A stretch of 64,000 nt of DNA from the NCBI RefSeq assembly GCF_040499845.1, contig NZ_CP159342.1, positions 6,572,001-6,636,000 on the forward strand, written 5' to 3'. Both the position numbers and the translations under genes were made by a program. Source of the DNA: Micromonospora sp. CCTCC AA 2012012 (lineage in GTDB: Bacteria; Actinomycetota; Actinomycetes; Mycobacteriales; Micromonosporaceae). Below the pieces are notes generated by a model, which ran no database searches, was not told where the DNA came from, and saw nothing but the letters and a program-made list of their open reading frames with translations. Below are positions 34,123 through 39,962 of this stretch, one piece after another (the first letter of the stretch is position 1; each line of letters starts with the position of its first letter).

Positions 34123-35253
34123 TCAGGGCTGCGGACCCAGCCAGTCGAGGCAGACCACCACCGCGTCGTCGACCAGGTCACCGGCGACGAAGGCCCGCAG
34201 GTCGCCGATGAGGGAGCGGACGGCGTCCAGCGGCTCCATCGGCCCGGTCCGGCGCAGGAACCGGTCCAGCGCCGTCTCGCCGTACCGGATCTGCTGGCCG
34301 GTGGCGTCGATGACGCCGTCGCTGACCACGAAGAGCCGGTCCCCGCGCTGGAGCTGGAAGTGCTGCTCCCGGTAGTCGGTGTCCTCGAACATCCCGAGCG
34401 GGAACTGCTTCTCCAGCGTCTGCTCGCTGACCTCGCCGTCGCGCAGCAGGAGCAGCCGGGGCGAGCCGGCGTCGACCGCGGTCAGCCGGCCCTCGGCCAG
34501 GTCCAGCTCGATCATCAGCGCGGAGAGGTGCTGCGCGCCCCGGTGCAGGGCATAGACCGCCTGGTCGGCCAGGGCCGCCTGGTCGGCGAGGCTCAGCTCG
34601 GCCCGGCGGGCGTTGCGCAGCGCGTGGGTCGCCAGCGTGGTCAGCAGCGACGCGGCCACCCCCTCCCCGGAGCCGTTGATCGTGGTCAGCCAGAGCCGGT
34701 GGCCGTCGTCGGACCAGTCGAAGCTGTCGCCCCGCACCGCGTACGCCGGTTCGAGCTGGCCGGCGAGGCTGAACGACGGCCGGATCCGGCTGCGGCCCGG
34801 CAGCAGCTCCCACTGCATCTCCGCGGCGAGCGTGAGCCGTCGGCTGCGCCGGGCGGTCAGGTAGACGTCCGTGCTGGCGGTCACGGCGGCCACCTCGTGC
34901 CCGAAGGCGGTGGCGATGCCGTCCAGCGTGTCGACGACGGCCGGGTCGGTGGGGACCGGTGACAACTTCAGCACGCCGCGCCGCTCACCCCGCATACCCA
35001 CCGGGAACCAGCCGGTGCCGTCGTTGAGGATCGGCTCCTGGTGGTCGAAGCACCGCCAGGCGGGATGCCCCGGCCCGCTGATCGGCTCCCCGCCGCTCAG
35101 CGGGAGCAGCACCGACAGTCGGTAGTCGACCTGGTACAGCTCCGCCTCGGTGATCCCGTACGACCGGGCCAGCTCGGCGGCGAGCCGATCGAGCAGCAGA
35201 TCGGCCGGCGCCTCGGTGAGGGTGCGCCGGGCCCGATCATCCGGTCCGCTCAT
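34123..35253 (-). CDS. PP2C (SpoIIE/RsbU-type) phosphatase-like protein with altered metal site
   Basis: 376 residues. The N-terminal third may be a small sensor domain; from about 140 it has the SpoIIE-type PP2C fold (LAAEMQWELLPGRSRI is the usual linker helix). Asp176 and Asp179 (RGDSFDW), the VSDGVIDA Asp and the DDAVVV Asp are present. The Asp of the GDxxGxG motif is Asn193 (INGSGEG), so one metal ligand is changed and activity may be weak or lost. Such proteins usually act on anti-sigma-factor antagonists. ATG 35253 has AAAGGAG upstream. Divergent from the MarR gene. Confidence 0.85.
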   Translation of the reverse strand: MSGPDDRARRTLTEAPADLLLDRLAAELARSYGITEAELYQVDYRLSVLLPLSGGEPISGPGHPAWRCFDHQEPILNDGTGWFPVGMRGERRGVLKLSPVPTDPAVVDTLDGIATAFGHEVAAVTASTDVYLTARRSRRLTLAAEMQWELLPGRSRIRPSFSLAGQLEPAYAVRGDSFDWSDDGHRLWLTTINGSGEGVAASLLTTLATHALRNARRAELSLADQAALADQAVYALHRGAQHLSALMIELDLAEGRLTAVDAGSPRLLLLRDGEVSEQTLEKQFPLGMFEDTDYREQHFQLQRGDRLFVVSDGVIDATGQQIRYGETALDRFLRRTGPMEPLDAVRSLIGDLRAFVAGDLVDDAVVVCLDWLGPQP

Positions 35254-35309
35254 CTTTGCTCCTTTGCACAGGTCGTCGGCCTGATGGGCGAGGTAGTCTC
35301 GGGCCCACC

Positions 35310-35849
35310 ATGGCCGAAGAACACGGTCCGTACGGACCAGAAGCGAGTATGGCTGCCGCTCTCGACGAGACGGCGGGCACCCTGCTGGCTGTCTGGGAGG
35401 CGGCCCGGGAGCGGACCACCCGGCTCTCCGGCGCCCAGTTACGCGCCGTCATGGTCGTCGAGCAGCATGACGGGATCAACCTCCGCCGGCTCGCCGGGCA
35501 GCTCGACATGTTGCTCTCCTCCGCCAGCCGGCTCTGCGACCGGCTCGTCGCGGCGGGCATGCTGGAGCGGGAGCCGGGCCGGTTCGACCGGCGGGAGATC
35601 TCCCTGCACCTCACCCCGGAGGCGGTCCGCCTCCTGGCCGAGCTGCGGGCCGCCCGCAAGGACCGGCTGGAGCGGGTGCTGGCCGGGATGAGCCCGGAGG
35701 GAAGGGCGGCGCTGTCCCGGGGGATGGCGGAGTTCCACGAGGTGGTCCGGCGCCGGTCGGCCCCGGAGGGAGGCTGGCCGGTCCTCCAGTCCGCCGGGGA
35801 ACCGTCGACCGAGCCGGCCGGCGACCCGCCGGTGGCGCGTACCGCCTGA
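35310..35849 (+). CDS. MarR-family transcriptional regulator
   Basis: 179 residues with the winged-helix core: SGAQLRAVMVVEQHDGINLRRLAGQLDMLLSSASRLCDRLVAAGMLEREP, then the wing and a dimerisation helix. The acidic N-terminus (MAEEHGPYGPEASM) and Pro/Glu-rich tail are less conserved. ATG 35310 fits the domain; no strong ribosome site is seen. It is divergent from the phosphatase at 34123, so a site in the 56-bp gap could control both. Confidence 0.85.
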   Translation: MAEEHGPYGPEASMAAALDETAGTLLAVWEAARERTTRLSGAQLRAVMVVEQHDGINLRRLAGQLDMLLSSASRLCDRLVAAGMLEREPGRFDRREISLHLTPEAVRLLAELRAARKDRLERVLAGMSPEGRAALSRGMAEFHEVVRRRSAPEGGWPVLQSAGEPSTEPAGDPPVARTA

Positions 35850-35885: not shown

Positions 35886-36905
35886 TCAGCCGTCGGTGGC
35901 CGCGACCCGCGCCAGCCGCAGGTGGTGGCCCGCTCGGGGATGCTCCGACAGGGCCCGCTCGCAGCTGGCGAGCACCACGTCGAGCAGCCGCCGTCCGCCG
36001 CGGGCGGTGAGCACCTCGTCCTGCCAGCGCACGAAGTCGATCAGCAGCTCCGGGTCGCGGACCCGCAGCGACGCCGCCAGGGCGTCGACCAGGTGGGCCA
36101 CCCCGGTGGCGATGTCGTCGGCGGTCTCCTCGGGCGGGTCGACCGCGCGCAGGGCCGCGTGGACCACCTCCCGCCGGTGACGCAGCACGGCCACGTACTC
36201 GTCGTCGGGAGTCGGCGCGCTCGGGCCGGTCGGGTGGCCGGTGAAGACCTGCCGGTCGAGCAGGCGGACCGCGTCCCGGGCGGTGGCGCCCCAGGCCGCC
36301 GCGCCGACCGCGGCGGCCCACCGGCCGTCCGGGCCGAAGCCGGGGCCGCCCGCCACGACCGGCACCCCGGCGGCCCGGCAGGACTCCACCATCCGGGCCG
36401 CGCGGACCAGCCGGGTCGGCTGCACGCAGCTCAGCAGCACCGCGTCGGGCCCGCTCTGGTGCAGGTAGGAGACCAGGTGCCGGGCGGGCACGCTGGCGCC
36501 CAGGAAGGTCACCCGCCAGCCGGCGGCCCGGACCACCTCGGCCACGATGCGGGCGGCCAGCGCGTGCCACTCGCCCTCGACACAGGCCGTCACGACGTGG
36601 CCGAGCCGGGGGGCCGCGGTGATGCGGGCGGCCACGGCGCCCACCACCACCTCGCTGACGTGCGTCGCGGCGTGTTCCTGGGGGACGCTCCACGACCCGG
36701 TCAGCCAACGCCGACCGATCTCCCGCTGCGCCACCGCGACCACGTCCACCAGGACGTCCGTCACCGGGACACCGGCGTCGAGCAGCCCGAGGGCCAGCCC
36801 GACCGCGCCGGCCTGGTCGGCCCGGTCCAGGCGGTCGAGGTACGCCTCGACGACGTCCGACCCGATCCCGCCGGTGGCCGTCCCGCCGTCGTGGCTTCCG
36901 CTCAC
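35886..36905 (-). CDS. Cobalamin-binding protein with CarH-like photosensory motif
   Basis: 339 residues. Residues 15-90 form the four-helix cap and carry W67-x9-E77-H78, the W-x9-EH motif of CarH/LitR B12 photoreceptors that senses adenosylcobalamin photolysis. The B12-binding Rossmann domain follows, with E112-x-H114 as probable lower ligand and GASVPARHLVSYL and VVAGGPGFG later. The usual G of the ligand motif is Ala here. Unlike CarH there is no MerR-type DNA-binding domain. A helical C-terminus of about 100 residues is unassigned. GTG 36905 overlaps the stop of the upstream phosphatase (GTGA), so the pair is translationally coupled. Confidence 0.85.
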   Translation of the reverse strand: MSGSHDGGTATGGIGSDVVEAYLDRLDRADQAGAVGLALGLLDAGVPVTDVLVDVVAVAQREIGRRWLTGSWSVPQEHAATHVSEVVVGAVAARITAAPRLGHVVTACVEGEWHALAARIVAEVVRAAGWRVTFLGASVPARHLVSYLHQSGPDAVLLSCVQPTRLVRAARMVESCRAAGVPVVAGGPGFGPDGRWAAAVGAAAWGATARDAVRLLDRQVFTGHPTGPSAPTPDDEYVAVLRHRREVVHAALRAVDPPEETADDIATGVAHLVDALAASLRVRDPELLIDFVRWQDEVLTARGGRRLLDVVLASCERALSEHPRAGHHLRLARVAATDG

Positions 36906-38569
36906 GCCGCCGCCACGACCAGCATGGCGATGTCGTCGTGGACCTGCCCGTCCAGCCACTCGTCGACCAGTTGCAGCAGCCGCTCGACCAGCACGGCCGG
37001 CGGCAGCCCGGCCGCCTGGGCGACCGCCTCGCGCAGCCGGCCGTCGCCGAACATCTCCAGCTCGGTGGGGCCGCCCCGCGCCTCGGTCACCCCGTCGGTG
37101 TACGCGAGCAGCAGCTCACCGGGGGCCAGCCGGACCTGCGCCTCGACGAAGCGGGCCGTGGCGAACGCGCCGACCGGCATGCCACCCACCTGCACCGGCT
37201 CGACGGTCCCGTCGGCGCGGACCACCAGCGGCGACGGGTGGCCGCCGCCGGCGAGGGAGAGCAGCAGGCCGCCGTCCGCCTCCCGGGTGAAGGCACCGAG
37301 CAGCAGGGTGGTGAACTGGCTGCGCCGGGCGGCGTCGGGCGCGTCGAGCAGCGCCCGGTTGAGCAGCCGGATCAGCTCCAGCGGGCGCTGCTCGACCAAC
37401 CGCAGGGTCTGCAGGGACTGACGTACCCGGCCGGTCAGCACGGCCGCGCCGACGCCCTTGCCGCAGACGTCGCCCAGGGCGAACATCGCGCCGCCCCCGG
37501 TGCGGAAGACGTCGTAGAAGTCCCCGCCGATGCGCAGGCTGTCCCCGGCGGCCCGGTAGCCGCCGGCCAGCCGCGCGCCGGGGACGGTGGGCAGCTCCGG
37601 TGGGAGCAGGCTGTTCTGCAGGACCCGGGCCAGGTGGGCCTGCTCGCCGTAGAGGTCGGCGGCGGCCAGGGCGGCGCCGGCCCGGGCGGCGAACTCGCGG
37701 GCCAGGTCGATCTCCCGCTGGTCGAAGCCGGGGCGTCCGGCGCGGCGGACCAGCAGCAGCGCGCCGGCCGGCCCGCCGGCGCTGAGCATCGGGCTGATCA
37801 GCAGCGTGCCGGGGCGGCCGAAGCCGTCGGGCAGCAGGTCGGCCAGGTCGGCCAGTTCGGCGGTCAACCACGGGCTGGGCTCGGTGGCGTCGCCGTGGAG
37901 CGCCTCGACGAGGCCGGGGACGCTGCCGGCGATCGCCCAGGAGGCGATGCCGGTGACGGGGACGCGGTCGCCGTCGGCGTACCGGACCCAGTGCGGCTCG
38001 TCCTCGGCGGGCGCGGGCGGGCGGTGCACGACCAGTGCGGCGTCGCCGAGGTAGGGCACCGGGAGGGTGGCGGCCGTACGCAGCGTCTGGTCCCGGTGCA
38101 GCGAGAGGCCGAGCCGGCTGCCGGCCTGGGCCAGGAAGGCGGTGCGGGAGCGCTCGGCGAGCAGCGCGTCGGTACGGGCCTGCTCCTCGGTGACGTCCCG
38201 CACGTACCAGGCGCAGCCGCCGGTGGCGAGGCTGCGGCGGACCCCGCGCAGCCGGCGGCCCCGGTGCTCCAGGTCGACGGTGTCGATGCCGGAACGCACC
38301 GCGCCGGCCAGCGCGTCGATCGCGCACCGGGCCAGGTCGGTGCCGGGGGTGAGGTCGGGGAGGAGTTCGACCGCCATGGCGTTGACCAGGGTCACCACGC
38401 CGGCCTGGTCGGTGGTGACGATCGCCTCGGCGAGCCCGTCCAGCAGTTCCCGGGCCAGCCGTGAGTCGGCCGGGAGCGGGGTCCCGACGGTACGCCGGGG
38501 GCGGGACCGGGACACCTGCCCGCCGCCGCTGACCGGTCCGGCGAGACCGCCCCGGCGGCCGGCCGTCAC
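36902..38569 (-). CDS. PAS-GAF-PP2C phosphatase (RsbU/SpoIIE type)
   Basis: Serine phosphatase likely to act in a partner-switching cascade. The 555-residue protein has a PAS domain (about 36-128), GAF-like domain (145-305) and PP2C domain (330-555). Unlike the phosphatase at 34123, its metal motifs are intact: GGDFYD (Asp350, Asp353), GDVCGKG (Asp367), YTDGVTEA and HDDIAML. GTG 38569 is preceded by GGCGAG and touches the stop of a 14-codon frame; GTG 38515 is a weaker alternative. It is coupled to the downstream B12 protein, which may be its regulator or its reporter of light/B12 status. Confidence 0.9.
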   Translation of the reverse strand: MTAGRRGGLAGPVSGGGQVSRSRPRRTVGTPLPADSRLARELLDGLAEAIVTTDQAGVVTLVNAMAVELLPDLTPGTDLARCAIDALAGAVRSGIDTVDLEHRGRRLRGVRRSLATGGCAWYVRDVTEEQARTDALLAERSRTAFLAQAGSRLGLSLHRDQTLRTAATLPVPYLGDAALVVHRPPAPAEDEPHWVRYADGDRVPVTGIASWAIAGSVPGLVEALHGDATEPSPWLTAELADLADLLPDGFGRPGTLLISPMLSAGGPAGALLLVRRAGRPGFDQREIDLAREFAARAGAALAAADLYGEQAHLARVLQNSLLPPELPTVPGARLAGGYRAAGDSLRIGGDFYDVFRTGGGAMFALGDVCGKGVGAAVLTGRVRQSLQTLRLVEQRPLELIRLLNRALLDAPDAARRSQFTTLLLGAFTREADGGLLLSLAGGGHPSPLVVRADGTVEPVQVGGMPVGAFATARFVEAQVRLAPGELLLAYTDGVTEARGGPTELEMFGDGRLREAVAQAAGLPPAVLVERLLQLVDEWLDGQVHDDIAMLVVAAA

Positions 38570-38697: not shown

Positions 38698-39930
38698 TCA
38701 GCCCGTACGGGTCAGCCAGCCGGCCGGGCGGTCGATGATCCGGCGGACCACCGAGCTGGCCCCACCGACGGCCGCCGACCGGGCGCCGAGGGCCGCCGGA
38801 CGGACCGTTACCGGGGACCAGGCGGCGGTGAGCACCCGGCGGGACAGCTCGGCCACCACCGGCGGGCGCAGCCACGGCGCGAGGGGGGCGTATCCGCCGC
38901 CGAGGACCACGGTGTCCAGATCCAGCAGGTTCACCACGCCCGCGACGGCGACCCCGAGGGCGGTTCCGGCGTCCGCCAGCGCGGCCAGGGTGGCGGGGTC
39001 GCCGGCCTCGGCCAGCTCGGCCAGCCGGCTCGCGGCGGTGTCGGCGGGCAGGTCCGCGCCGGCCAGTCCGGCGGCGGCGAGGACGGCTTCCTGGCCCGCG
39101 TACCGCTCCAGGCAGCCCTGGCCGCCGCAGCGGCAGGGCCGGCCCTGCGGGTGCACCGGGATGTGACCGATCTCGCCGCTCCAGCCGCGGGCGCCCCGGT
39201 AGAGCGTGCCGTCCAGGACGATCCCCGCGCCGATCCCGATCTCGCCGGAGATGTGCAGGAAGCTGGCGGAGCCGGGCGGACCGGCGTGCAGCTCGCCGAG
39301 GGCGGCCAGGTTGGCCTCGTTCTCGACCACCAGCGGCGGGATCCCGTCGACGGCTTCGGCCAGCCGGTGACCGGCGAGCAGGCCGGGGACGTCGACGTCC
39401 CGCCAGCCGAGGTTGGGCGCGAGCCGGACCATGCCGCCGGCGCCGACCAGGCCGGGCACGGCGAGGGCCACGCCGGCCGGGGTCAGCCCGTCCCGTACGG
39501 CCGCGGTGTGCGCGTCGGCGGCCAGCGCGGCGAGCCGGGTCAGGGCGTCGGCGGGGGAGACCGGGCGCAGGTCGGCGCGTTCCACCACGTGGTGCCGGAC
39601 CGCGCCGGTCAGGTCGACCACGCAGGCGGCCAGGTAGTCGACGTTGACCTCCAGGCCGAGCCCGGCCGGCCCGTGGTCGGCCAGCACGAGGCCGCGGGCG
39701 GGGCGACCCGCTCCGGTACGCGGTGCCGGCTCGGCCTCGGCGACCAGCCGGCCGCCGATCAGGTCGTCCACGACGGCCGAGACGGTGGCCCGGGTGAGCC
39801 CGGTGGCGGCGGCGAGGTCGGCCCGGGACGGCGGGCGGTCGGCGCCGGCGATCCGGCGGAGCACCACGGCGAGGTTGAGTTCCCGGAGGCTGCCCTGCCG
39901 GACGGCTCCGGCGGTGCTGACGCTGGTCAC
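38698..39930 (-). CDS. ROK-family xylose repressor
   Basis: 410 residues. The N-terminal winged helix ([20 protein letters not shown]) is followed by a ROK domain with the zinc motif [14 protein letters not shown] and phosphate-loop residues. It resembles XylR of Gram-positives and is divergent from xylA, 78 bp away. ATGs at 39948 and 39957 are possible, but GTG 39930 gives the usual family N-terminus; none has a strong ribosome site. Xylose or a glucose-type effector should release it from the operator at 39962. Confidence 0.85.
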
Positions 39931-39933
39931 CGC

Positions 39934-39962
39934 TTGACAGTGCCACATCGTGGCCATTTAAT
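39934..39962 (+). promoter_or_regulatory. xylA promoter
   Basis: TTGACA (39934-39939) and TTTAAT (39957-39962) are 17 bp apart, among the closest to consensus in the window, 46 bp before the xylA start codon. Confidence 0.8.

Follow-up and report, generated by a model that had tools for sequence, protein, structure and literature searches.

The window analysed here is a 64,000-nucleotide stretch of the genome of the soil actinomycete Micromonospora sp. CCTCC AA 2012012 (assembly GCF_040499845.1, contig NZ_CP159342.1, forward-strand positions 6,572,001 to 6,636,000). It contains a gene for a B12-binding protein of the photocobilin family, which overlaps the end of a gene for a PP2C-type phosphatase, hereafter PP2C_A. 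The genome has two photocobilin paralogues, of which the window copy, here called type-1, is the atypical one. The features of the pair, with residues numbered in amino acids (aa), are the following:

35886..36905, minus strand: gene for the type-1 photocobilin-family protein, GTG start, 339 aa
36630..36860, minus strand: four-helix cap (aa 16-92) with GxxW (64-67) and E77-H78, from a B12-binding_2 match and model helices
36255..36608, minus strand: Rossmann B12-binding domain (aa 100-217), carrying the lower ligand H114 in GEWH and the motif GxxxP (136-140), from a B12-binding match and the model
35892..36200, minus strand: C-terminal photoglobin domain (aa 236-338), from full-length matches to 8J2W/8J2X/8J2Y and model helices
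36102..36104, minus strand: Gly268, which replaces the biliverdin-contacting Asp of SasPcob (Asp270), the Saccharothrix syringae photocobilin, from alignments
36024..36026, minus strand: Trp294, the kept equivalent of SasPcob Trp296, from alignments
36902..36905, minus strand: GTGA overlap of the PP2C_A stop (TGA 36904-36902) and the photocobilin start (GTG 36905-36903)
36902..38569, minus strand: PP2C_A, a SpoIIE/RsbU-type PP2C with PAS-like and GAF-like regions, 555 aa

Pfam families B12-binding_2 (aa 19-89) and B12-binding (aa 102-213) were matched above their cut-offs. The fusion of a globin-like photoglobin to the B12 domain is supported by full-length alignment and by a fold match to 8J2W, 8J2X and 8J2Y; Phycobilisome is named by Pfam in only 3 of 56 aligned photocobilin proteins, and the fold comparison hardly probes the globin part outside photocobilins. 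Judged from its sequence, the product is a standalone photocobilin, i.e., a cap and Rossmann module fused to photoglobin. A first-pass annotation of this DNA had described a CarH-type protein without its DNA-binding domain. The missing domain stands: a Pfam scan of the protein gave no helix-turn-helix family at E 0.1, and the first helix of the predicted model is the cap, with no MerR-type DNA-binding domain ahead of it. The CarH identity does not stand, because residues 236-338 form a photoglobin domain, which had been overlooked, and the protein is therefore not a stripped CarH. CarH/LitR (5C8D, 8JBS) shares with it the homologous cap and Rossmann domains, the Trp, the Glu-His pair and the lower-ligand His, but it lacks photoglobin and has a MerR-type domain for DNA binding. 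SasPcob (8J2W/8J2X), ca. 50% identical over most of the chain, has the same three-domain order, a similar length and fold, W-x9-EH and ExH. The same photocobilin core is found in the photocobilin-diguanylate cyclase AbDPcob (8J2Y; E 3.1e-42), where it is fused to the output enzyme, whereas the window photocobilin is a separate protein encoded next to a PP2C.

RsbR, the stressosome protein, joins an N-terminal globin-like domain to a STAS domain in one chain; no STAS match was obtained in a Pfam scan of the photocobilin, which is thus not of this type. Weak NCBIfam matches to pyl_corrinoid and MtgC would allow the window protein to be read as an ordinary methyltransferase-system protein that carries methyl groups on a corrinoid, and source annotations include "methanogenic corrinoid protein MtbC1". 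The NCBIfam matches are far below cut-off (44.3 versus 215.3 bits), the classified neighbours in the window are regulators and phosphatases, and the photocobilin match is full-length; we reject this reading as extremely improbable.

All four signature motifs of light-responsive cobalamin domains, GxxW, EH, GxxH and GxxxP (as given in PMC11796333), are present in the window protein as G64xxW67, E77-H78, G111xxH114 (G111-E-W-H114) and G136xxxP140. W67-x9-E77-H78 and a B12-binding domain with H114 had been noticed in the first pass, and both hold. W-x9-EH alone is weak evidence, since it arises in 286 of 20000 shuffles of the protein sequence; what gives it weight is not rarity but placement and conservation, since it occupies the homologous site of the cap and recurs in relatives. 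In a set of 100 distinct full-length photocobilins, window included (17 duplicates dropped, two reference sequences set aside), the Trp, Glu and His and an (E or D)xH motif are retained in all 100. A lack of W-x9-EH among coupled homologues had been named as a refuting outcome; the motif is kept by 86 of 86 distinct PP2C-coupled photocobilins, window included, so that the first-pass reading passes this test unrefuted. All 24 distinct type-1 proteins have an unaltered set of B12-site residues.

W-x9-EH is no private mark of the coupled proteins: it is also present in all eight B12-domain proteins with a different architecture (L086-L093), which were drawn from a photocobilin-profile search and so are not independent. 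In two of them (L087 and L089, genomes G467 and G305), a photoglobin-like segment precedes the B12 domain within one frame, a reversed order mentioned in PMC10979010. A third (L086 1468-3653, genome G241) has a W-x9-EH B12 domain without a full photocobilin match and a SpoIIE-type domain downstream, possibly an independent B12-PP2C pairing. The window organism's own genome also encodes a LitR/CarH-type MerR-B12 protein (L004 1174-2121, plus strand, C1 near 5086786), adjoining genes that by eye are phytoene-desaturase-like and isopentenyl-diphosphate-isomerase-like. In this protein His replaces the photosensory Trp (GERH-x9-EH) and GxxH is absent, so that the genome's DNA-binding B12 regulator looks less canonical than both photocobilins.

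The protein might report cobalamin supply (occupancy by adenosylcobalamin, AdoCbl) or redox state to the phosphatase, and not light. Apo, AdoCbl-bound and illuminated AbDPcob differ in enzyme activity (PMC10979010), so occupancy alone could signal, and the genome has an adenosyltransferase-family gene (Cob_adeno_trans), because of which AdoCbl can probably be made. The presence of the four light-responsive motifs, and the fact that the nearest characterised protein is a photoreceptor, make a supply or redox sensor improbable.

PP2C_A matches the SpoIIE family (E 1.7e-40) and retains D350, D367, D492, D545 and D546, in agreement with the earlier statement that its metal residues are intact; conserved Asp residues of SpoIIE-family PP2Cs are presumed here to bind metal. 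Among 121 sequences (window PP2C_A and database homologues), D367, D545 and D546 are invariant, D350 occurs in 120 and D492 in 115. The best sequence match is the RsbU domain of Rv1364c, and by fold it matches the SiaA, RsbU and SpoIIE phosphatases. Compared with RsbU/SpoIIE-type PP2Cs (3KE6, 5UCG), PP2C_A adds a PAS-like/GAF-like N-terminus and a co-translated photocobilin as candidate regulator. As for the PAS-GAF label of the first pass, the GAF match of PP2C_A lies below cut-off and its Pfam scan gave no PAS match, while among 38 aligned PP2Cs at E 0.01 GAF was matched in 24 and PAS models in at most five. In the model, two alpha/beta regions joined by long helices precede the PP2C domain.

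The GTG start overlapping the PP2C_A stop, likewise noted in the first pass, recurs in relatives. A search of genome contigs with the window protein retrieved 28 loci (the best-scoring ones, not a random sample), and a PP2C_A homologue lies directly upstream in all 28. Adding the two pairs of the own genome gives 30 pairs; in 28 of them, all but L015 and L024, a candidate start codon of the photocobilin gene overlaps the PP2C stop, by 4 nucleotides in 19, by 1 in 8 and by more in one. In the set of 100, a PP2C is directly upstream in 86 and absent in 14, where absence means no SpoIIE profile match within 400 bases upstream, in 0.6 to 1.7 kb of sequence; all 14 come from outside the host's class.

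The own genome contains a second, type-2 module, PP2C-photocobilin-STAS, at C1:1299367-1302384 (C1:1.30 Mb). Its PP2C and photocobilin are paralogous to the window pair, with the same order and the same 4-nucleotide overlap; it differs in that Asp270 is kept and in that a STAS gene lies downstream and two divergent STAS genes upstream. A same-strand STAS match follows the photocobilin in 39 of 39 loci (L034-L072) that scored best in two genome searches, 32 of them from the genus (one being the own-genome copy) and seven from other actinomycete genera; in 38 it starts 27-128 bases past the photocobilin frame, and in the remaining one it overlaps the end of that frame. A plausible phosphatase substrate thus lies beside the sister copy, though not beside the window copy, and this is the strongest support for a partner-switching role.

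A photocobilin is expected to bind both AdoCbl and biliverdin and to respond to green and red light. SasPcob Asp270 contacts biliverdin, and Trp296 contacts the corrin and bilin ring D (PMC10979010). Asp is found at position 270 in none of 24 distinct type-1 proteins, in 55 of 62 other coupled and in 12 of 14 uncoupled photocobilins; in a wider database set, the 45 closest homologues have Asp in one, Glu in two and a gap in two. The window protein, with Gly268, also has a shorter stretch ahead of this helix than SasPcob. Equivalents of Trp296 are retained in type-1, those of His137 mostly so, and acidic side chains occur one helical turn earlier in several type-1 proteins. Bilin binding by type-1 is thus doubtful though possible, and we infer that its use of biliverdin would be weak or absent. 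Asp270 is a feature of the pocket and does not define photocobilins, since the founding member, AbDPcob, has His there and binds biliverdin weakly (PMC10979010). Pigment supply is also unsure, because the sole candidate source of biliverdin, and the only PF01126 match found in the genome, is weak (27.9 bits, above cut-off); it is a 234-aa heme-oxygenase-superfamily protein (L033 1372-2076, plus strand, C1:161084-161605).

SasPcob without biliverdin stays monomeric in dark and light (PMC11796333) and has an inverted enzyme effect, the test enzyme being activated in the dark and apparently inhibited in the light (PMC10979010). On these grounds type-1, which has lost Asp270, might be a natural bilin-free photocobilin, responding to green light via AdoCbl only and signalling to its phosphatase with a polarity opposite to that of its bilin-bound sister; we offer this as a speculative proposal.

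We favor, with a probability of about 0.7, a reading in which an AdoCbl photocobilin, coupled with an RsbU/SpoIIE-type PP2C, lets light control the phosphatase by contact; our confidence comes mainly from homology, coupling and the loss of Asp270. The photocobilin is co-translated with PP2C_A and most likely binds it. Under green light, the Co-C bond of the AdoCbl it holds would be cleaved, with loss of the adenosyl group, and the cap helix bearing E77-H78 would shift. Self-association of the photocobilin, or its contact with PP2C_A, would then change, altering the rate of dephosphorylation of the PP2C_A targets, which are probably STAS anti-anti-sigma proteins whose genes lie elsewhere. The initial proposal of a photosensory-type B12 domain co-translated with a partner-switching-type PP2C, with contact plausible, survives in this form, with a photocobilin in place of CarH.

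Several observations weigh against light control by contact. No STAS_2 or HATPase_c_2 match is present in the window (PF01740 was not searched), and the 16 STAS_2 matches above cut-off in the genome all lie elsewhere. Of the 28 loci L005-L032, seven have a STAS match in their flanks; in three of these, all type-2, it is on the same strand and immediately downstream, and neither type-1 nor Actinoplanes-group loci have one. No STAS match follows the type-1 photocobilin in 18 of 18 loci with at least 900 bases downstream (two more were too short), nor was a same-strand one seen downstream in L075, L078 and L115, coupled loci of the same taxonomic order; the profile was built from type-2 neighbors, and distant STAS genes may escape it. 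The type-1 photocobilin has no Asp270, and titles and abstract openings of the literature (supplements excluded) revealed no experimental work on the type-1 variant or on any photocobilin coupled to a PP2C. The gene is also dispensable: among 121 sampled genomes of the genus, a type-1 PP2C was found in 82 (three partial or interrupted) and a full type-1 photocobilin in 21, counts that are lower bounds because 5, 17, 11 or 12 candidates were scored per genome, depending on the search. Finally, the median pairwise ratio of nonsynonymous to synonymous substitution rates (dN/dS; Nei-Gojobori estimates from non-independent pairs) is 0.44 for type-1 and 0.22 for type-2 photocobilins.

Three further genes flank the pair:

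35349..35849, plus strand: regulator of the MarR family, tail to tail with the photocobilin gene (true start uncertain; the frame has its first TTG at 35256)
34123..35253, minus strand: PP2C_B, SpoIIE-family, with motif-II Asp changed to Asn (Pfam, alignment, synteny)
38698..39957, minus strand: ROK-family regulator upstream of PP2C_A (Pfam; synteny conserved in all six named type-1 loci of Micromonospora)

The MarR gene and the second, altered PP2C were already recognized in the first pass. PP2C_B has Asn for the motif-II Asp, and thus fails the conserved-Asp criterion of RsbU/SpoIIE-type PP2Cs at this motif, and DAGS for GGGH (His to Ser). Both changes are present in 45 of 45 sequences (window and 44 orthologues), which suggests a maintained pseudophosphatase or a changed chemistry.

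In the same 121 genomes, the type-2 PP2C was found in 95 and the type-2 photocobilin in 88. The difference in photocobilin retention from type-1 has a Fisher p of 2e-21, with genomes that are not independent, and all 21 genomes with a type-1 photocobilin also carry type-2. Of 61 genomes without the full type-1 gene, 40 loci were retrieved. The order PP2C_A, MarR, PP2C_B, sugar transferase is kept in 39 of them (in L200 no PP2C_B orthologue was seen), and 39 of the 40 have no photocobilin trace at E 1e-3, the other, G010, having a fragment; in G050 the photocobilin is split between two frames. The convergent stop codons lie a median of 53.5 bases apart where the photocobilin is missing (40 loci) and 1053 where it is present (24 loci). 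On a quick tree of 68 loci (supported by SH-aLRT, the Shimodaira-Hasegawa-like approximate likelihood-ratio test, only), photocobilin presence changes 11 times, at least nine of them forced by well-supported branches, which disfavors a single gain. Ancestral presence with repeated loss is preferred because the gene order is identical and type-1 forms one clade; the type-1 clade, window copy included, has full SH-aLRT support and a long stem in a photocobilin tree with 14 of the 24 type-1 and 10 type-2 rows. Thus, the type-1 phosphatase recurrently occurs with no photoreceptor beside it. In the catalytic part of PP2C_A, dN/dS is slightly higher without photocobilin (0.40) than with it (0.33), the quartiles overlapping.

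By domain, dN/dS for type-1 and type-2 photocobilins is 0.39 and 0.21 in the cap, 0.25 and 0.11 in the Rossmann domain, and 0.61 and 0.32 in the globin. Since it is roughly doubled in each, the whole protein appears about twice as free to change, and a specific relaxation of the bilin domain is unsupported. Recurrent absence at one spot, the split and fragmentary copies, this doubling and the loss of Asp270 throughout type-1 could all mean that the protein is a decaying paralogue, one that still folds and may bind B12 but has become unnecessary for phosphatase control. We consider decay unlikely, as the B12 site is intact in all 24 distinct type-1 proteins, dN/dS is below 1 in all domains, and the window copy, like the six named Micromonospora type-1 loci, still overlaps the stop of its PP2C gene. 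As far as can be read from the DNA, the window copy is a specialised or relaxed second copy beside the genome's PP2C-photocobilin-STAS module.

The photocobilin family, its light response and its control of an enzyme by contact were published in 2024, when the role of standalone photocobilins was termed less clear and SasPcob was predicted to interact with STAS, SpoIIE and PP2C proteins (PMC10979010); these points are thus already known. A conserved, co-translated PP2C, with an adjoining STAS gene in some clades, offers something concrete to test, namely an anti-sigma cascade under light control. The locus of the type-1 copy is a natural experiment, in which the same phosphatase, the MarR gene and mostly PP2C_B occur with or without the photoreceptor in related species, and it predicts a photocobilin that gave up its bilin. 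If this is true, two phosphatases would be run by two differently colored or oppositely signed B12 photoreceptors in one genome, and many relatives would have lost one photoreceptor and kept its phosphatase.
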